Shown piece by piece: positions 3,679-21,045 of a stretch of 64,000 bases of DNA. The notes under the pieces were generated by a model, which was given only the letters and a program-made list of their open reading frames with translations, made no database searches and was not told where the DNA came from. The stretch lies in contig NZ_CP031844.2 of NCBI RefSeq assembly GCF_003606345.3, positions 620,001 through 684,000 on the forward strand. The letters run 5' to 3'. Each line of letters begins with the position of its first letter. The stretch's first letter is position 1. The stretch comes from Bartonella krasnovii (GTDB lineage: Bacteria; Pseudomonadota; Alphaproteobacteria; Rhizobiales; Rhizobiaceae). The translations under genes were made by a program, and so were the position numbers.

Positions 3679-4302
3679 TCAGGCGGCTTTTGTTGAGATT
3701 CTTTGTATCTCTTGTTCTATTTCTACTAAAAAGCTTTCAACCGCTTGATTGATTTGTTCAATTTGTTTGTCATCACGGTGGATACGTTTGATTTTCATAC
3801 GTAAATGAGATGCATCCCTCGTAAAACGTGGGTCATAACTGATAAAATCACACCATTTGCGTCCCGTACAAGCCATTTGGAATTGCATTTGTGCAAGATA
3901 TTCCGGTTTGATCTCATTATCCATAAAGAAGCGCAAATGGTTGCTTGATTGAGGGCATTTGATTTCAATTAAACCATCATTTCCAACAAAGCCATCAGGG
4001 CTAGCGCCCGCCATTTGAATTGTAGGGTGTTGAATAAAGCCACATTGAGTGATTTGTGTATCATAAATGAAAGCATATTCTTTGAGTGCCTCTTCTTCAT
4101 GTTCAATGCCCCATTGCATAACGGGTGTTATATAAGATTGACTTATCTCTCCAGTTAAACGCTCTGTCATGAGTTTAATTTTGTAATCTTCATATTTGCT
4201 TGTAGGCGTTCCCTTTGCTGTTTTACTAAGAATGTTATAAATATTTGAAGCGGTGACTTTACCTAAACGGGCTTGAAACCATTCTGCAGTTCTTTGTTGC
4301 AT
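3679..4302 (-). CDS. YqaJ-like viral recombinase / exonuclease
   Basis: A 207-residue member of the YqaJ/lambda-exonuclease nuclease family, which resects double-stranded DNA and works with an annealing protein in phage recombination. It begins MQQRTAEWFQARLGKVTAS, the typical entry motif. The PD-(D/E)xK core is visible as GASPDGFVGNDGLIEIKCPQ near residues 95-120, followed by a Q-rich helix (LAQMQFQMACTG). The start at 4302 is chosen because it matches the family and lies one base past the stop of the upstream annealing gene, giving tight coupling. The exonuclease plus Bet/RecT pair is the classical two-component phage recombinase. Confidence 0.88.
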   Translation of the reverse strand: MQQRTAEWFQARLGKVTASNIYNILSKTAKGTPTSKYEDYKIKLMTERLTGEISQSYITPVMQWGIEHEEEALKEYAFIYDTQITQCGFIQHPTIQMAGASPDGFVGNDGLIEIKCPQSSNHLRFFMDNEIKPEYLAQMQFQMACTGRKWCDFISYDPRFTRDASHLRMKIKRIHRDDKQIEQINQAVESFLVEIEQEIQRISTKAA

Positions 4303-4303
4303 T

Positions 4304-5128
4304 TCACACCGCCCTTTGTTGTTCATGAGACGTTGGAGCATATTCGATATCTTGGATATGAATATATTCGGCATCTTGTATAGAGGCGTTTATTTGCTCT
4401 TGTTGTGGGAGAGATTGTAGAGCTCTTTCTCTTTGAATATTTTTCTTTTTTTCCAACAGCCCTAAAACTTCTTGTGCTTTTTCACAAGACAGATCTGTTA
4501 GATTTTCTACCTTTGCGTAAGCGAGAAGATCATCTTCATTCGTTTCCGTTTCTTTAATTAATCCTTTGATTTGTTTAAGCATGGCATAAGAAACAAGTTG
4601 CACTTGTGTGGTGTCATTAATACGTTTAGCTTCGTCTTCTTCATAAATGCCAGAAAACCCGAAAGCATAGCGAGCACATTGTATGGTAGCTTTATGACGT
4701 AACATACGAGCAGGATATTTTTTCCAAGGGTCACTTTTCTCTTGTAAGCATTCACTTAAATATTCGGTGACCTCGATAGGATCTTTAACGCCTTTGAGAC
4801 GTATAGCACATTTGATAGCAATGAGATTGCCATCTTTATCGAGTTGATCTTGAAATGTCATGCCGTCAAATTGAGGATTAGATTTAATGATCTTAATCCA
4901 CCCGTCGATAGAGACCACAGGTATAATGCCGCCGCCTCTCTTCGGGAATGCGTATATTTCTTTTGTTAGCGGATTAAGACCATAAGTGTTAGCAACAGAG
5001 ATAAAAGCAGCGAATTCTTCATCAGAGAATTGCTGATTGATACAAGTTTTGATAATAGTTTTTCGAAACTCGTCATGAGAGAACCCATATTTATTTGCTA
5101 TGGTTGTTAAAAAAGTGGGATTGGTCAT
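4304..5128 (-). CDS. Single-strand annealing protein, Bet/RecT family
   Basis: A 274-residue phage recombination protein of the lambda Bet (RecT superfamily) type that anneals complementary single strands produced by the exonuclease encoded immediately downstream. Recognisable blocks are FISVANTYGLNPLTKEIYAF near residue 42, GGGIIPVVSIDGWIKI near 65, and the late block KYPARMLRHKATIQCARYAF near 135. The C-terminal ~80 residues are low-complexity and Q/E-rich. An inverted repeat lies upstream at 5164-5176. Frame intact and length near that of lambda Bet. Confidence 0.9.
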   Translation of the reverse strand: MTNPTFLTTIANKYGFSHDEFRKTIIKTCINQQFSDEEFAAFISVANTYGLNPLTKEIYAFPKRGGGIIPVVSIDGWIKIIKSNPQFDGMTFQDQLDKDGNLIAIKCAIRLKGVKDPIEVTEYLSECLQEKSDPWKKYPARMLRHKATIQCARYAFGFSGIYEEDEAKRINDTTQVQLVSYAMLKQIKGLIKETETNEDDLLAYAKVENLTDLSCEKAQEVLGLLEKKKNIQRERALQSLPQQEQINASIQDAEYIHIQDIEYAPTSHEQQRAV

Positions 5129-9366: not shown

Positions 9367-10002
9367 ATGGAATTAAGTGAAGTGGTATTTATAGTTATAT
9401 GTGTCACGCTTGGCTGTTTGCTTTTTAGTGGGATGTCGTTGTTTTGTGCTTTGAATTGTAGCGAAAAGGTTAAGTTGCTTAAAATGCAGGTTAAATATCT
9501 TACAGAAGAAATAAGAGAGAAGGAAAAAGAGATTAAGTTTTTAAAGGAAACCAAGCAGAGCATTGATGAGTGTGATGCGGATATCAAAAAATATGAAGAG
9601 AAAATAGAGAAGCTTAAAGAAGAGCTTAAACAGCGTGATGAAAAAATTAAGAATCTTAAACAAGCGCATAAAGAAGCGATTCAAAAGAAAGACATAGCTC
9701 TACACAGGCGATTTAAAGAAGTTGAAGCCCGTGATGCAGAAATAGAGAAGCTTAAAGAAGAGCTTAAACTAAATTCCGAGGATGAAAAAGAAGTTCAATC
9801 TCGTGATGAGGAAATTGAAGAACTGAAGCTGAAGCTGGATGCGTATGATGAAACGTTCGGTAAGAACATCAAATCTATGTATGAACTAATAGCAGAAATT
9901 GCACACCGTGATGCAGAAATAGAGAAGCTTAAAGACGAGCTTAAGCAGTGTGATGCATCTGTACAAAAGCCTTCTCATAAGAATAAGAAGAAAAGTAAGT
10001 GA
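9367..10002 (+). CDS. Membrane-anchored long coiled-coil protein
   Basis: A 211-residue protein with one N-terminal membrane segment (residues ~5-27, VVFIVICVTLGCLLFSGMSL) followed by an almost continuous charged coiled coil. Repeated units RDAEIEKLKEELK and QRDEKIKNLK recur with ~35-residue spacing, and the tail is lysine-rich. The ATG at 9367 has GGAG seven bases upstream and is preferred over the ATG at 9355. The shape resembles phage Rz-like spanins or scaffolding coiled coils, but its place in the early operon argues against a spanin. Function unknown. Confidence 0.65.
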   Translation: MELSEVVFIVICVTLGCLLFSGMSLFCALNCSEKVKLLKMQVKYLTEEIREKEKEIKFLKETKQSIDECDADIKKYEEKIEKLKEELKQRDEKIKNLKQAHKEAIQKKDIALHRRFKEVEARDAEIEKLKEELKLNSEDEKEVQSRDEEIEELKLKLDAYDETFGKNIKSMYELIAEIAHRDAEIEKLKDELKQCDASVQKPSHKNKKKSK

Positions 10003-10012
10003 GGAGAGAGAG

Positions 10013-10381
10013 ATGGCAGATATGAAAGTTAAAAAGAAGTATGAACTTACAGATGACGTAGTTGATATTGGTCCTTGCAAGGTATACCGCATACGCGCCT
10101 TAAAAGATTTTGGTGATGTTAAAAAAGGTGATCTAGGCGGTTGGGTAGAGAGTGAAGATAATCTCAGTCACGAAGGCAATTGTTGGATCAGTGGTTTAGG
10201 GGTGGTTTTTGGTAGTGTAACAATAAACGATGATGATCAAGTTGAAAACTTTAAGTGTATTTCTCATAAGATTTACAAATTATCTATGTTAACACCACAG
10301 GAATACATGCAATCACTACCTTGGCACCGTAGAATATGGGAGCGACTCCGTTATTATTGGGAGTTCAGGATATGGTTGTAG
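10013..10381 (+). CDS. Hexapeptide-family head protein without repeats
   Basis: A 122-residue protein carrying the head of the hexapeptide family (KKKYELTDDVVDI, then YRIRALKDFGDVKKGDLGGW, then LSHEGNCWISG). Only two or three degenerate hexapeptide turns follow, then an unrelated tail rich in Trp, Arg and Tyr (SLPWHRRIWERLRYYWEF). The ATG at 10013 follows GAGGAGAGAG. This is the only plus-strand member and shows that the head can exist without a long beta-helix, so the head is probably the functional module. It overlaps the convergent gene at 10354 by 28 bases. Confidence 0.72.
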   Translation: MADMKVKKKYELTDDVVDIGPCKVYRIRALKDFGDVKKGDLGGWVESEDNLSHEGNCWISGLGVVFGSVTINDDDQVENFKCISHKIYKLSMLTPQEYMQSLPWHRRIWERLRYYWEFRIWL

Positions 10382-13291: not shown

Positions 13292-13729
13292 ATGTTCTTA
13301 AGAAACCGTAAATCAAGACAGCAAAAAAAATTTATTGCAACGGCGGTTGGATATGTACCATGGGGATTAGGGGTTTCAGAGCATTTTTACAATCTTTACG
13401 AATATGCAGATGGCACGAGGGAATATGAGGAATTCGATGGTGGACAATATCAAGATTATGAGATGCCAACGAATATTGATTACAGTACCAAAGCGCAGGT
13501 AAAAGCGTGGATATACGGTGGTAATTTACCAAAAAGCGTATTGAGTTATGAACCATTGATAGATGAGATAAATGTGCAAATCAAAAAACGTACAAAAGAT
13601 GATCAATTGATTTGTGAAATTACGAATGATTTTGAGAGAGGCTATCCATTATCCAGTGAAGAGATAGACAGAGAGCTAGAAAAAGCGCTTGATATTCAAT
13701 TAGGTAAGAACCAAAATGAAAAAAAGTGA
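13292..13729 (+). CDS. Hypothetical phage protein
   Basis: A 145-residue protein (MFLRNRKSRQQKKFIATAVG, then YEYADGTREYEEFDGGQYQD) with a basic start and an acidic, Tyr-rich centre. No membrane segment, signal peptide or known catalytic motif is visible. It is the last gene of the rightward early operon before the structured leader at 13785. Function unknown. Confidence 0.6.
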   Translation: MFLRNRKSRQQKKFIATAVGYVPWGLGVSEHFYNLYEYADGTREYEEFDGGQYQDYEMPTNIDYSTKAQVKAWIYGGNLPKSVLSYEPLIDEINVQIKKRTKDDQLICEITNDFERGYPLSSEEIDRELEKALDIQLGKNQNEKK

Positions 13730-13784
13730 AAAAAATAAAAAATACGTATTGACTTTAAAGAAAAGGTCGTTTAGAAAGATCGAC

Positions 13785-14002
13785 AAGTGCTTAAAAACCA
13801 CGAATCCAATAGCGGATAGGCCACGAAAAGGTTTCTCCCATTCTTAAAAAAAACTGACTTTCTTTTATGCTGTCGTTGGCATATAACGATTTATGTCGGG
13901 TGTAGCTATACCATACAATACCCTTCGCGAGGGAAAAGTATAGCGGCGGACTATTGGCCGTGTTTTTAGCGCCCGGCGCCCTTATGGGCTGTCAATTAAA
14001 AA
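13785..14002 (+). ncRNA. Structured 5' leader RNA, copy 1
   Basis: A ~218-nt leader upstream of the gene at 14029, homologous over its full length to the leader at 20793-21010 on the other strand. Helices seen: GCTATAC (13905-13911) with GTATAGC (13938-13944), enclosing the hairpin CCCT-tcgcg-AGGG (13921-13933). A GTC/GAC closing pair lies outside. In copy 2 the long helix reads GTTACAC/GTGTAAC and the inner one CTC/GAG, so base pairs are kept by compensatory change. The 3' end has the conserved GCCCGGCGCCCTTATGGG before TGTCAATT. No known RNA family is recognised. Confidence 0.72.
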
Positions 14003-14028
14003 CTTCTAACCAATAGAAAGAATTTCAA

Positions 14029-14331
14029 ATGAAAAAAAACGAAATAAAAATAACCACCGATTTCTTATGTGATTTGTGGATGGCAGTGTTTAAAGAAGCT
14101 AACACTGACTATACTGAGGGTGAATATCATATTTCTTTAGTAGAACTTATGGCAGATCTTGAAAAAGTTTTGGTTTTAAAATTACAAAACGAAATGCCTA
14201 ATTTTACAAAAATCTTAGCAATCATTACAGAATTTGGTCAATCTGAACCAATTCATTCAATAGCTCCATTATTGAAAGCTTATACTCCTATTTTGAATGA
14301 AAAATCTCATCAGCCATTAAAAGCAGCATAA
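14029..14331 (+). CDS. Hypothetical protein downstream of the structured leader
   Basis: A 100-residue, mostly helical protein (MKKNEIKITTDFLCDLWMAV) with an acidic central segment and no recognised domain. It is the first gene after the leader RNA at 13785-14002 and is followed after three bases by the G-rich intercistronic motif and the antirepressor gene. The operon layout mirrors that at 18.1-21.0 kb, where the same leader precedes three hexapeptide-repeat genes. It might be a co-regulator of the antirepressor; function unknown. Confidence 0.62.
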   Translation: MKKNEIKITTDFLCDLWMAVFKEANTDYTEGEYHISLVELMADLEKVLVLKLQNEMPNFTKILAIITEFGQSEPIHSIAPLLKAYTPILNEKSHQPLKAA

Positions 14332-14333
14332 AT

Positions 14334-14352
14334 AACGGCGTGGGGGGCGCCT
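14334..14352 (+). promoter_or_regulatory. G-rich intercistronic motif
   Basis: The 19-mer AACGGCGTGGGGGGCGCCT between a stop codon and the next ribosome binding site. The identical 19-mer lies after the last gene of the mirror operon (18113-18131, minus strand). It contains GGGCGCC, the exact complement of GGCGCCC in the leader RNA (13975-13981). Confidence 0.6.
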
Positions 14353-14381
14353 ACTTTTTAACTTTTGTAGGGAAAAGAAAA

Positions 14382-15131
14382 ATGTCACAATATTTAATAA
14401 ATGTAAATCAAAAAAATCCAATAGATGTAAATCAAATCAACATAGATGACAGCATTCAAACTATGTCTAGTCGTGAAATTGCAGAATTGTGTGGTAAACG
14501 GCATGATAATGTTATGCGTGATATCAAGAATATTTTGCTTGAATTGTATGATGAAAAAGATATCCTCAAGTTTGAGGGCATCTTTTTTGATAGCATGAAT
14601 CGCCAGAAAACTGAATATCTTCTCCCTAAACGTGAATGCTTAATCCTCGTATCTGGTTACAGCATCGCTTTGCGTGCAAAAATAATTGACCGTTGGCAGG
14701 AATTAGAAAAGCAAGTAACACCACCACAAATCGATTATTCAAGTCCACAAGCTATGATTGGTTTTTTAAATTACTTGCAAGGTCAAATAGATCAAAAAGA
14801 TACTATCATTGCAGAGTTAAAACCAAAAGCAATAGCTCTTGATGGTTTAACGCGCTCGGATGGCTTGTTCGGTATTATAGATGCAGCAAAAATCTTGGAA
14901 GTAAGACCTAAGGATTTATCAGATTACTTACGAAGATATGGTTGGGTTTACAAAAGAGTACCAAGTGGTCCATTATTACCATATCAAGATAAAATACAAA
15001 AAGGTCTTATGGATTGCACGACTATCACTATTCAAAAAAATGATGGTACAGAAAAGACAGTACCGTCAACAAAGATAACAACAAAAGGATTGGCTTTCTT
15101 AAGAGAGCAACTTTATGGGAATATGCAATAA
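14382..15131 (+). CDS. Phage antirepressor: Rha N-domain with KilAC C-domain
   Basis: A 249-residue regulator. Residues ~27-115 match the phage Rha domain (MSSREIAELCGKRHDNVMRD, later EYLLPKRECLILVSGYS). The C-terminal ~110 residues match the KilAC/antirepressor domain (AIALDGLTRSDGLFGIIDAA, then LRRYGWVYKR, ending TTKGLAFLREQLYG). Such proteins bind and inactivate small CI-like repressors lacking a peptidase domain, which fits the repressor at 8264. The ATG at 14382 follows AGGGAAAAG. The operon is preceded by the structured leader RNA, suggesting post-transcriptional control. Confidence 0.9.
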   Translation: MSQYLINVNQKNPIDVNQINIDDSIQTMSSREIAELCGKRHDNVMRDIKNILLELYDEKDILKFEGIFFDSMNRQKTEYLLPKRECLILVSGYSIALRAKIIDRWQELEKQVTPPQIDYSSPQAMIGFLNYLQGQIDQKDTIIAELKPKAIALDGLTRSDGLFGIIDAAKILEVRPKDLSDYLRRYGWVYKRVPSGPLLPYQDKIQKGLMDCTTITIQKNDGTEKTVPSTKITTKGLAFLREQLYGNMQ

Positions 15132-18133: not shown

Positions 18134-18913
18134 TTATTCTGTTTCATCAACAATTTTGACAAGGTTATCGCTTTCATAAACCTCATAATTTATAGGAACT
18201 TCCCTTACTTTGCTTTTCTTGGTTAATTTCGCATTGCCATAAGCACGACCCCAGACCTTGGTATAGAATAAAACCTTGGCATTGCCAAAAACAGAGCCAT
18301 AAATTTCAGCACAACCACCCACCAAAGCACCACCATAGACCTTGCCATGTATTTTTGCACGACCATTAATAAAGGCATAATTATAAACCTCAGCATAGCT
18401 ATGAATACGAGCCGAGCCAGCAACAATGGCACGACCATAGACCCTTGCATAACTAAAAACCGTAGCATCATAAGAAACATGCGCATGACCATAAATATGA
18501 GCATCAGCAAAAACGCAAGCACCCCCACTTACATGAGCATTGCCATAAATATTCCCATAAACATGAGCATTGCCATAAACAAAAGCATGGTCATAAATTT
18601 TTGCATATTGAGAGATAAAAGCCTTTCCATAGATTTCACAATTCCCATAGACTTGACCACAGACTTGAGAATAATGCCGTATTTTTGCATTTTCATAAAC
18701 ACGGGCATGACCATAGACACAAGCATCATCATAAACCCAGCAATTGCCATCATGAGAGAGGTTGACTTCCTTTTCAATAAAGCCGCCCAAAGAACCAGCT
18801 TTGACATCATCAAAATCTTTTAAAGCCCGAATGCGATAAAGATTTATAATATTACGAGTAAGCGCATGTTTTATTTGTTTGATTTCGCTAGTTAATTCAT
18901 ATTTTTTGCACAT
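18134..18913 (-). CDS. Hexapeptide-repeat (beta-helix) protein, family member 7
   Basis: A 259-residue protein and third gene of the leader-2 operon. The head is recognisable but carries an insertion (MCKKYELTSEIKQIKHALTR, then LYRIRALKDFDDVKAGSLGG and LSHDGNCWV). About 28 hexapeptide units follow (YGHARV, YGNAHV, SYDATV), with several units replaced by shorter YGNIYG-type turns, then a non-repeat tail ending DNLVKIVDETE. The start at 18913 aligns with the family; an in-frame ATG at 18946 is possible. Probably a left-handed beta-helix; function unknown. Confidence 0.78.
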   Translation of the reverse strand: MCKKYELTSEIKQIKHALTRNIINLYRIRALKDFDDVKAGSLGGFIEKEVNLSHDGNCWVYDDACVYGHARVYENAKIRHYSQVCGQVYGNCEIYGKAFISQYAKIYDHAFVYGNAHVYGNIYGNAHVSGGACVFADAHIYGHAHVSYDATVFSYARVYGRAIVAGSARIHSYAEVYNYAFINGRAKIHGKVYGGALVGGCAEIYGSVFGNAKVLFYTKVWGRAYGNAKLTKKSKVREVPINYEVYESDNLVKIVDETE

Positions 18914-18979
18914 AAGGATACCCACACAATTTAATGTGTTAAACATTTGATAAAATTTGGAATGGAAAATTTGTAAGAA

Positions 18980-19008: not shown

Positions 19009-19698
19009 TTATGCTGCTTTATTTTCAATAATCTTTACAACGTGATCGTTTTCATAAATTTCACAATCTTCGGGAATCCCATATGCATAGTAAATGTTTT
19101 GTTCAACATATGAATAACCATCTCTTTTTAATCTTGCATTGCCATGTACCAAACCTCTAATGGTGTGATAACCAGTCACTTTTGCATTCCCATAAACAGA
19201 GCCGTAGACCTTAACATACCCACCCACGCTAGCATTGTCATAAACCTTGCCATAAATTTTTGAAGAGCCACTTACAACAGCATTGTCATAAACCTCAGCC
19301 TTGCTATGAATACGTGCACACCCCGATAATTTTGCATTCCCATAAACCCTTGCTCTATTATAAACCCAAGCATTATGAGAAAGATGAGCATTGTCATAAA
19401 CATGAGCTTCAAAATACACGCGGGTTTTATCACATACATGAGCATTGCCATAAACAAAACCACCAATGGCAGCATTGCCATAGACCCTTGCATTTTCATA
19501 AACACGACCAGATTTTACAACACAAGCATTATCATATACCCAGCAATTGCTATCATGAGAGAGATTGCTTTCATTTTCGATAAAACCACCAAGGTCCCCA
19601 GCCTTTACATCAGCAAAGTCTCTTAATGCTTTAATGCGATAAAGGGTTTGATTATTTAATACACGTGTCTCATTTGTGAGTGCAAATTTCTTTTGCAT
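19009..19698 (-). CDS. Hexapeptide-repeat (beta-helix) protein, family member 6
   Basis: A 229-residue protein, second in the leader-2 operon, with a good AAAGGAA ribosome binding site. The head reads MQKKFALTNETRVL, then YRIKALRDFADVKAGDLGGF and LSHDSNCWV. Repeats such as ENARVY, GNAHVC and DNAHLS are more diverged than in the 5.6-6.8 kb cluster. The C-terminus is a short non-repeat cap (CEIYENDHVVKIIENKAA) that resembles the cap of member 7 (YESDNLVKIVDETE). The two genes are therefore closest relatives. Confidence 0.78.
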   Translation of the reverse strand: MQKKFALTNETRVLNNQTLYRIKALRDFADVKAGDLGGFIENESNLSHDSNCWVYDNACVVKSGRVYENARVYGNAAIGGFVYGNAHVCDKTRVYFEAHVYDNAHLSHNAWVYNRARVYGNAKLSGCARIHSKAEVYDNAVVSGSSKIYGKVYDNASVGGYVKVYGSVYGNAKVTGYHTIRGLVHGNARLKRDGYSYVEQNIYYAYGIPEDCEIYENDHVVKIIENKAA

Positions 19699-19786: not shown

Positions 19787-20770
19787 TTAAGCAGTTGTAA
19801 AAACAATTTCACCAACAACAACGGGTTCTTTATAATTGCCACCAATTTTGGTATTACCATTTATTTCAGTATAACCAATAACTTGAGCATTGCCAAATAC
19901 ATGCGCATTGCCATAAACCTTGCCATAAATTTTTGCATTGTCATAAATGCGCGCATCATCATAAACCTCAGCATTCTCAGAAATTAAAGCATTATTGGAA
20001 ACCCGCGCGCCACCATAGACCTTGCCATAAACTTTAGCATTGTCACAAACACAGCCCCTATCATAAACATGGGCATAACAAGTCACTATAGCATTCCCAT
20101 AAACCTTGGCTTCTCTATTGACCATAGCAGCGCCACAAACATGGGCATTATCGCAAACCCTAGCATTGTCAAAAACTACAGCATCTTCATAAACATGGGC
20201 ATTATCATAAACTTGAGAACTTCCTAGCACACGTGCTTTACCATAAACCTCAGCATTGCCATAAATTCTAGTTTTATCAAGAAACTTGCCATAAATAGTG
20301 TCATAAATTTTTGCATTGCCATATACTTTAGCATGTCCAAAAATATCGCCATAAATCAATGCATTATCATAGACTTGCGCATTGCCATAAACCTCAGCTC
20401 TAATATGCACGCTAGCATTGCCATAGACCCTTGCATTTTCATAAATTTTTGCAGATCCAGTAATTTTTGCATTATCCGAAATATGGGCATTATCGAAAAC
20501 CCGCGCATCCCCATAAACCATGGCATTGCCACCGACCCAGCACTCACCATTATCAGCTAAATTTGCTACTTTGTGTATAAAACCGCCGAGGTCCCCCGCT
20601 TTAATATTAGCAAAATCCCTTAAAGCACGAATGCGATAAAGAGTATAATCACCTACTTCAATCGTTTCGTCTGTAAATTCATATTTTTTTACACATTGCT
20701 GCTTATTAACAGAGGCGGTTTCATTTGAAATGTTAGAAATAACGGGGGTGTTTTTTGAGATAGTTGTCAT
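19787..20770 (-). CDS. Hexapeptide-repeat (beta-helix) protein, family member 5
   Basis: A 327-residue protein, the longest of the family and first gene after leader RNA copy 2. A unique 27-residue N-terminal extension precedes the head (VKKYEFTDETIEV, YRIRALRDFANIKAGDLGGF). About 38 hexapeptide units follow (GDARVF, DNAHIS, GNASVH, YGNAHVFG), then a short tail (GNYKEPVVVGEIVFTTA). The ATG at 20770 has AGGAATC upstream. The extension is Ser/Thr/Asn-rich without a cleavable signal. Role unknown; the leader RNA implies regulated expression. Confidence 0.78.
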   Translation of the reverse strand: MTTISKNTPVISNISNETASVNKQQCVKKYEFTDETIEVGDYTLYRIRALRDFANIKAGDLGGFIHKVANLADNGECWVGGNAMVYGDARVFDNAHISDNAKITGSAKIYENARVYGNASVHIRAEVYGNAQVYDNALIYGDIFGHAKVYGNAKIYDTIYGKFLDKTRIYGNAEVYGKARVLGSSQVYDNAHVYEDAVVFDNARVCDNAHVCGAAMVNREAKVYGNAIVTCYAHVYDRGCVCDNAKVYGKVYGGARVSNNALISENAEVYDDARIYDNAKIYGKVYGNAHVFGNAQVIGYTEINGNTKIGGNYKEPVVVGEIVFTTA

Positions 20771-20792
20771 ATTAAGATTCCTAGTTATTTAA

Positions 20793-21010
20793 AGTTTTCA
20801 ATTGACACCCTATAAGGGCGCCGGGCGTTGAAAACACGGTAACTAGTCCGTCGTTACACTTTTCTCATAAAGAGTATTGTATGGTGTAACCACACCCGAC
20901 AAAATCATCATATATGCTAATCACAGCATAAAAGATAGTCAGTATTTTAAAGACATAGGAGAGGTCGTATCGTAACCTACCCGCTAGTTATTAAGTGTTT
21001 TCAGCACTTG
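20793..21010 (-). ncRNA. Structured 5' leader RNA, copy 2
   Basis: The reverse-strand homologue of the leader at 13785-14002. It keeps TCTTTTATGCTGT, GTCGGGTGT, ACCATACAATAC, CGGACTA and GCCCGGCGCCCTTAT, with variable bases elsewhere. The main helix pairs bases 20884-20890 with 20853-20859 (GTTACAC/GTGTAAC); the inner hairpin is 20864-20874. Two base pairs in the long helix and one in the inner helix differ from copy 1 while remaining paired. A good promoter lies just upstream (21017-21045), so transcription should start near 21010, giving a ~240-nt leader. Confidence 0.74.
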
Positions 21011-21016
21011 ATTATT

Positions 21017-21045
21017 TATATAACAAAATACGTATTTATTGTCAA
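21017..21045 (-). promoter_or_regulatory. Sigma-70-type promoter for leader RNA copy 2
   Basis: On the minus strand TTGACA (21045-21040) and TATATA (21022-21017) are separated by exactly 17 bases. The spacer contains the palindrome AATACGTATT, a possible operator that also occurs at 13739-13748 and 60483-60492. Confidence 0.75.

Follow-up and report, generated by a model that had tools for sequence, protein, structure and literature searches.

Results

Two homologous leaders and their downstream genes

The window, by which we mean the whole 64,000-nucleotide stretch of Bartonella krasnovii DNA that was analyzed, contains two homologous leaders, at 13785-14002 (+) and 20793-21010 (-), which align end to end with 77% identity and lie where a sequence-only reading of the window had placed them (Table 1). 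As that reading had said, each stands a short distance ahead of an operon, with ATGs at 14029 and 20770; these are 26 and 22 nt past the ends it gave, which are too short, as the box that we call b2 falls outside both. The compensatory changes that it described between the copies are exact, both in the main helix (GCTATAC/GTATAGC in copy 1, GTTACAC/GTGTAAC in copy 2) and in the inner hairpin (CCC/GGG and CTC/GAG). Two blocks that it took for loops are placed differently in the structure: GTCGGGTGT forms the closing stem P1 on its 5' side, with GCGCCCGGC / ACGCCCGGC as its partner, and CGGACTA covers the 5' arm of hairpin P3 and continues into the start of the P3 loop.

Table 1. Features of the two leaders and of the genes that follow them (window coordinates)
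Feature	Position	Strand	Basis
Copy 1, putative promoter, TTGACT ... TAGAAA, 17-nt spacing	13749-13777	+	read from sequence
Copy 1, leader up to ATG	13785-14028	+	alignment
Copy 1, box a1 (TTAAAAAC), in loop of 5' hairpin	13791-13798	+	box analysis; 5' hairpin is helix 1 of covariation count
Copy 1, box b1 (CCAATAG)	13806-13812	+	box analysis and covariation count
Copy 1, hairpin directly 3' of b1	13818-13834	+	helix 3 of covariation count
Copy 1, core, RF02221 match, 48.4 bits (gathering score 53)	13895-13985	+	covariance model
Copy 1, stem P1, 5' strand (partner 13969-13977)	13895-13903	+	covariation count
Copy 1, hairpin P2 (inner helix P2a at 13921-13933)	13905-13944	+	covariation count
Copy 1, hairpin P3, loop with box b' (CTATTGG, 13951-13957)	13947-13960	+	covariation count
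Copy 1, box a' (GTTTTTA), between P3 and P1 3' strand	13962-13968	+	box analysis
Copy 1, box a2 (TAAAAAC)	13997-14003	+	box analysis
Copy 1, box b2 (CCAATAG), ribosome-binding region	14010-14016	+	box analysis
First ORF of copy 1, 100 aa, phrog_33768, unknown function	14029-14331	+	
Phage antirepressor, Rha N-terminus, KilAC/ANT C-terminus	14385-15131	+	start codon by eye, ORF 14340-15131
Copy 2, putative promoter, TTGACA ... TATATA	21017-21045	-	read from sequence
Copy 2, leader up to ATG	20771-21010	-	alignment
Copy 2, box a1 (TGAAAAC)	20997-21003	-	box analysis
Copy 2, box b1 (TAACTAG)	20984-20990	-	box analysis
Copy 2, core, RF02221 match, 48.1 bits	20812-20900	-	covariance model
Copy 2, P1	20892-20900 with 20820-20828	-	
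Copy 2, P2	20853-20890	-	
Copy 2, P3	20837-20850	-	
Copy 2, box b' (CTAGTTA), P3 loop	20840-20846	-	box analysis
Copy 2, box a' (GTTTTCA)	20829-20835	-	box analysis
Copy 2, box a2 (TGAAAAC)	20794-20800	-	box analysis
Copy 2, box b2 (TAACTAG), runs into AGGA ahead of ATG	20781-20787	-	box analysis
YdcK-type beta-solenoid protein after copy 2	19787-20770	-	Pfam B_solenoid_ydck over cut-off
Two further YdcK-type beta-solenoid proteins	19009-19698, 18134-18946		B_solenoid_ydck over Pfam cut-off

The link to an antirepressor is one of position only: copy 1 lies ahead of an open reading frame (ORF) and an antirepressor gene, and copy 2 lies ahead of genes for YdcK-like proteins. A short ORF elsewhere in the window, at 9950-10381 (+), resembles by eye the N-terminal part of a YdcK-type protein; it is next to none of the genome's six RF02221 matches. 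Across the genus, 30 of 60 distinct loci have a first gene in one cluster that was typed as an AntA antirepressor through a single representative, and 20 fall into the cluster that contains the window's YdcK-like protein, whose first-listed member (L002) has no Pfam match. Five more loci belong to other clusters, and five are without an ORF under the rule applied. Outside Bartonella, the representatives tested are Bro-N, Rha, ORF6N or SymE proteins or have no Pfam match; the kinds of gene given here are those of cluster representatives, not of every gene, and no ORF was found at 13 of 207 loci.

Rfam identity and distribution

The core of copy 1 matches the Rfam family RF02221 (sRNA-Xcc1) with an E value of 9.1e-8, 4.6 bits below the gathering score, and copy 2 likewise falls short of that score. 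The family was reportedly described in a 2011 paper. This genome has six leader copies, of which five lie on the large contig and the sixth on a second contig of 29 kb. All six are full-length matches to the model at 44.0 to 51.6 bits, each under 53, and all six have the P1/P2/P3 core with AUACAANACCC...GGG; no Rfam family reaches its own gathering score within the 64-kb window. The core sequence and the P1/P2/P3 structure are thus common to the window leaders and sRNA-Xcc1. The two differ in that the RF02221 model covers the 87-nt core only, so that a1, b1, a2 and b2 lie outside it, and in score, as some members from the genus exceed the cut-off and the window copies stay below it.

At E 1e-3, 41 of 61 Bartonella genomes have RF02221 matches, and 32 of 61 have matches that exceed the cut-off; the largest number in one genome is 44. 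In the phylum, 55 of 398 genomes have matches at E 1e-4 and 39 of 398 have them above the cut-off, and none was found in 14 control genomes. These genus and phylum searches, like those for Brt-like leaders, c4-2 and the C4 model described below, covered samples of larger groups. Loci from the genus, phylum and Brt-like-leader searches were drawn from part of the matches, and 80 more loci were taken by region. The leaders are therefore a real RNA of a known family. The sequence-only reading had thought the RNA probably new and had let that claim rest on Rfam; it falls with the RF02221 match and the family's wide occurrence, and the presence of above-cut-off members in 32 of 61 genus genomes likewise rules out a new family. 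A blastn search of the leader against phage records gave nothing at E 0.01. Four other hits in the same genome (L007, L008, L009 and L014) are 15- to 16-nt matches within long ORFs that look haemagglutinin-repeat-like by eye, and these we took as chance.

Structure and covariation

The prediction of a structured, cis-placed leader with compensatory changes was borne out by covariation across leaders of the genus. We aligned 59 of the 60 distinct Bartonella leaders, leaving out the divergent L021, and counted 43 pairs in 8 helices, the b1-b' pairing included, over these 59 distinct rows. Pairing is found in 97.3% of the 2526 cells. Changes on both sides occur in 24 of 43 pairs (shuffled, 16.3 +/- 1.5) and in 300 cells (shuffled, 93.9), and the covariation score is 0.396 (shuffled, 0.196 +/- 0.006); none of 500 shuffles reached the observed number of pairs or the observed score, and 2 of 500 reached the 63 further pair types (shuffled, 57.0), counts which, as the tool warns, are not probabilities for related sequences. 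When the 3' partner was slid along the alignment, the covariation score fell to 0.044-0.088 and the paired cells to 33.7 to 45.3%, with part of the excess over these slid controls built in, since the helices were marked on copy 2.

The helices differ in how much they vary. All cells pair in P1 (531/531) and P3 (177/177), where 5 of 9 and 2 of 3 pairs, respectively, never change. The hairpin directly behind b1 has both-sided changes in all five of its pairs across the 59 leaders. Pairing between b1 and b' holds in 408 of 413 cells (98.8%), and at five of its seven positions both partners have changed, giving as many as five pair types.

Boxes that change together

When the six copies of this genome are set side by side, box b' in the P3 loop and box a' in the single strand 3' of P3 have complements near the 5' end of the leader (b1 and a1) and again just ahead of the start codon (b2 and a2). 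The box sequences vary among the copies, and the complements follow. The six b boxes are all different, while the a boxes are identical in two copies. Downstream, each of the six b' boxes matches its own b2 at 7/7 positions, and none of 30 non-cognate pairings is full (best, 6.5/7). Upstream, there is one full off-diagonal match, that of the L004 b' at 7/7 with the upstream part of L002, and the upstream specificity of b' is thus not absolute.

The same holds across the genus, where the 59 leaders have 30 distinct b' heptamers. A perfect b2 for b' is present in 56 of 59 leaders, against a proportion of 0.0003 among non-cognate pairings, and a perfect b1 in 54 of 59 (non-cognate, 0.0012). For the a' hexamer, a downstream complement is present in 56 of 59 leaders (non-cognate, 0.107) and an upstream one in 58 of 59 (non-cognate, 0.059). 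Among the exceptions, L049 and L206 are without b2 and have other sequence after the core; in L036 and L037 b1 misfits b' while b2 fits, as if the 5' part had been swapped between copies.

A plain duplex-energy test separated cognate from non-cognate pairings with an AUC of 0.88 downstream and 0.93 upstream in Bartonella and less well elsewhere (0.74 and 0.80), for which reason we adopted a two-box test. After removal of identical segments and short flanks, 207 of 253 loci were kept, namely 60 of 76 from Bartonella and, from two sets outside the genus, 67 of 70 and 80 of 107; an earlier pattern search had kept 108 matches with enough flank. In Bartonella, threshold 11 is reached by 57 of 60 loci at the downstream site (non-cognate, 0.273) and by 59 of 60 at the upstream site (non-cognate, 0.494); for threshold 13 the numbers are 56 and 59 of 60 (non-cognate, 0.061 and 0.148). 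The cognate target ranks first or equal first for 55 of 60 loci at either site.

One could suppose that the boxes are DNA repeats serving recombination, without function as RNA. RF02221 has been reported in integron cassettes, and the leader is present on six Bartonella plasmid records, including pBGR3 and pBT01, both of which would suit such repeats. We consider this idea very improbable: b' is the inverse complement of b1 and b2 and sits in a hairpin loop, b2 lies beside the start codon, and P2 and other helices covary.

Limits of the downstream boxes outside Bartonella

Beyond the genus, the upstream boxes hold better than the downstream ones. In the first set, 36 of 67 loci reach threshold 11 downstream and 55 upstream (non-cognate, 0.126 and 0.211), and 23 and 51 reach threshold 13 (non-cognate, 0.015 and 0.044). 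In the second set, the corresponding numbers are 54 and 77 of 80 at threshold 11 (non-cognate, 0.154 and 0.306) and 34 and 69 of 80 at threshold 13 (non-cognate, 0.025 and 0.064). The cognate target is first or equal first for 24 of 67 and 36 of 80 loci downstream and for 47 of 67 and 63 of 80 upstream. Since a2 and b2 are so often missing, blocking of the ribosome-binding site is not a general property of RF02221.

All 26 of the 80 loci in the second set that fall below 11 for a2/b2 reach 11 for a1/b1. Among the matches listed, which cover 23 of these 26, 22 belong to Xanthomonas, Pseudoxanthomonas, Rhodanobacter, Lysobacter, Luteimonas, Dyella or [Pseudomonas] boreopolis, the last of which we take to group with Xanthomonas, and one to an alphaproteobacterial assembly; the taxonomy covers at least 120 stretches, with titles for 80. 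The real number of loci without a2/b2 is likely higher than counted, because by eye the b' matches of L100 and L116 lie off the ribosome-binding site; six of the seven loci in the L100 cluster pass the a2/b2 threshold. At the Xanthomonas hortorum locus L084, where the downstream gene is SymE, the a2/b2 score of 10 is under threshold, and occlusion is unsupported there. At two SymE loci of one genome (L051 and L245) a2/b2 reach the threshold, and L051 is under it for a1/b1.

A terminator-like hairpin precedes the core at 49 of 67 and 62 of 80 loci outside Bartonella (expected from 20 base shuffles each, 7.7 and 7.3) and at 1 of 60 Bartonella loci (expected, 2.4). Such a hairpin would suit transcription attenuation, in which the hairpin behind b1 would end transcription ahead of the core or let it pass, depending on the pairing at a1/b1, and this mechanism would also explain the loci that have a1/b1 and are without a2/b2. 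Its rarity in Bartonella leaves no fit to the window copies, and as the explanation of the leaders we judge attenuation unlikely. Given that the hairpin is common outside Bartonella and rare within it, attenuation and occlusion may coexist in the family as two modes.

Discussion

Proposed mechanism

With its structure, its three sets of boxes and their joint change, each leader has the makeup of a C4-type module, and we think it very probable that it is an antisense RNA module directed against the ribosome-binding site of its own downstream gene. One promoter would give a single transcript carrying, in order, a1-b1, a hairpin, the core (P1, P2, P3 with b' in its loop, and a'), a2-b2 and the gene. 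The core, free or still within the transcript, would pair across the ribosome-binding site, b' with b2 and a' with a2, and the first gene would then go untranslated, together with any coupled gene such as the antirepressor gene at 14385. We infer that such pairing represses, that the core may act in trans and that it may be released by processing. Release in the manner of C4 would be by RNase P at the 5' side of P1; an RNase P-like 3' motif, RCC after P1, is found, with approximate placement, at only 28 of the 60 loci from Bartonella and at 49 of 147 elsewhere. Pairing at a1/b1 would offer a second, competing or autoregulatory site. As the six b boxes of this genome all differ, each copy should regulate itself more than its paralogues.

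The two sites could instead form a switch acting only in cis, with b' and a' paired to a1/b1 (on) or to a2/b2 (off) and no diffusible RNA. Both sites lie in one transcript, and over 36 cognate Bartonella pairs the predicted upstream duplex is the stronger (mean, -21.1 versus -16.6 kcal/mol downstream), which suits such a switch. Against it, the same layout in phage P1 is reported to yield a processed antisense RNA of about 77 nt (PMC5320573), sRNA-Xcc1 of Xanthomonas was reportedly found as a separate RNA of 88 nt by RACE, the size of the core, and copy-specific boxes would be unneeded. We regard such a cis-only switch, with its state chosen by the order of folding, by a ligand or by a protein, as rather unlikely.

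Papers on sRNA-Xcc1 have treated it as a trans-acting small RNA (sRNA), and targets have been predicted for it and for Brt1 (PMC5387305 for Brt1). If the real targets were unlinked, the many RF02221 loci outside Bartonella without a2/b2 would be accounted for. The covariation of b' with b2 and b1 of its own transcript (56 and 54 of 59 leaders) means that unlinked targets alone are insufficient, and we find this explanation improbable.

Relation to the Brt RNAs

The sequence-only reading had raised a relation to the Brt RNAs of Bartonella henselae. In sequence no such relation appeared: the leader has one 17-nt blastn hit (E 0.39) upstream of the 27 XRE genes. In architecture it stood in part, as the leaders of XRE genes, which are probably Brt RNAs, have a P1/P2/P3-like core and covarying a1/b1. 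We thus rejected the window leader as a Brt RNA by sequence, there being no useful similarity and the downstream genes being an antirepressor operon and those for YdcK-like proteins.

The genome of the window has 27 HTH_3 matches (XRE-type), many of which share a conserved upstream stretch that cannot be aligned with the window leader. These conserved leaders (L286-L302; for example, L289:1230-1455) are probably the Brt RNAs, judging from their position, their range of copy numbers and the single copy on pBGR3. Leaders of this Brt-like kind are present in 37 of 61 genus genomes at E 1e-10. On pBGR3 a regular-expression search of stretch L312 gave no match, and blastn found one copy, which fits the 26 + 1 plasmid listed in Table 1 of PMC5387305. 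On the second contig, at 3949-4998, and on pBGR3 (NC_012847), an sRNA-Xcc1-type leader with its downstream gene and a Brt-like leader with its XRE gene are divergently oriented, within about 1 kb of each other.

The core of the XRE-gene leaders reads as P1, P2 and P3. Among 74 distinct cores from Bartonella loci, picked by motif and having 23 different b' windows, a complement of at least 6 nt is found upstream for b' in 47 (non-cognate, 12.3%) and for a' in 61 (non-cognate, 41.8%), and downstream for b' in 8 (non-cognate, 4.7%) and for a' in 9 (non-cognate, 16.5%). Stretches L290, L286 and L317 contain more than one Brt-like core each, some without matching upstream boxes. Like the window leaders, the Brt-type leaders thus appear to have b' in the P3 loop and a1/b1 upstream; unlike them, they show little sign of a2/b2 and precede different genes.

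Brt has been proposed to be a riboswitch (PMC5387305). According to a review, deletion of the 3' end of brt1 or of brt1 itself raises trp1, which fits negative control, and the review also reports a heme response of a brt1-gfp reporter and an attenuator at the Brt1 3' end. The latter two observations argue for a ligand and against a purely RNA-addressed Brt switch, and the riboswitch proposal and the heme response likewise favor the cis-only switch considered above.

Implications

sRNA-Xcc1 and Brt have been described as free-standing, virulence-related sRNAs or as riboswitches. From the strong covariation we infer a new link of sRNA-Xcc1, and probably also of Brt, to the C4 mechanism. A published link between sRNA-Xcc1 and C4 was not found, including in connection with antirepressors or SymE, although subscription papers and supplements could hold one; one paper names sRNA-Xcc1 and C4 antisense RNA as separate table rows only, and another, on sRNA-Xcc1 and SymE, leaves the mechanism open (further literature: PMC8070961, PMC2996969, PMC12444791, PMC12189769, PMC2864571, PMC12197685, PMC4919922, PMC11701678). 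The antisense module proposed here would give a widely annotated RNA family, whose targets have been sought far off, a testable mechanism and a named target, the adjoining gene. At symE loci that have the boxes, it would also give sRNA-Xcc1-type RNAs a target in cis. In addition, it would extend C4-type control beyond antirepressors and suggest an RNA-addressed reading of Brt. The 30 heptamers of the genus leaders would make a natural set of antisense addresses.

Comparison with c4-2 and C4 RNAs

The c4-2 RNA (RF02944) reportedly goes back to a 2017 paper. One of two sub-threshold loci, L346, has by eye a box layout like that of the leaders, whereas the sequence differs, and the c4-2 model was not matched by the leader at E up to 5. 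The C4 model (RF01695) gave no match to 13700-14060 at E up to 5, to the six loci of this genome at E up to 0.1 or in the window's genome at E 1e-4. C4 and c4-a1b1 (RF03163) belong to Rfam clan CL00128, and RF02221 is listed without a clan. Given a C4-like box layout and no match to the C4 model, we regard the leader as working like C4 and not as a member of RF01695.

The likeness to the C4 antisense RNA of phages P1 and P7, in P1 an immunity RNA, lies in the layout. The GenBank record of phage P1 annotates, in order, a1, b1, c4, a2, b2, icd and ant1, and by our own reading the P1 c4 core folds as P1, P2 and P3, with b' in the P3 loop followed by a'. The leaders and C4 (RF01695; c4-a1b1, RF03163) thus have in common the order a1-b1-core-a2-b2-gene, a core of three helices, and the placement of b' in the loop of P3 and of a' between this hairpin and P1. 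In the two-box test, with windows slightly different from those used for RF02221, phage P1 and ten RF01695 loci all reach threshold 11 downstream and upstream (11/11; non-cognate, 0.20 and 0.22). Copy 1 is followed by a small ORF and then an antirepressor gene, as phage P1 c4 is by icd and then ant1, and a hairpin behind b1 with a U run is, by eye, common to phage P1 and many RF02221 loci outside Bartonella. The P2 arm and most of the sequence differ. On balance, we lean toward the view that sRNA-Xcc1, Brt, C4 and c4-2 are lineages within a single class of antisense leaders that derives from phages and targets its own transcripts. In Bartonella, sRNA-Xcc1 and Brt would have multiplied to many copies in each genome, each copy with an address of its own; one lineage would act at the ribosome-binding site and Brt mainly through the upstream site. 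If this is true, the Brt-Trp circuit would be a domesticated phage-immunity switch that is at least partly RNA-addressed and does not answer to a metabolite only.
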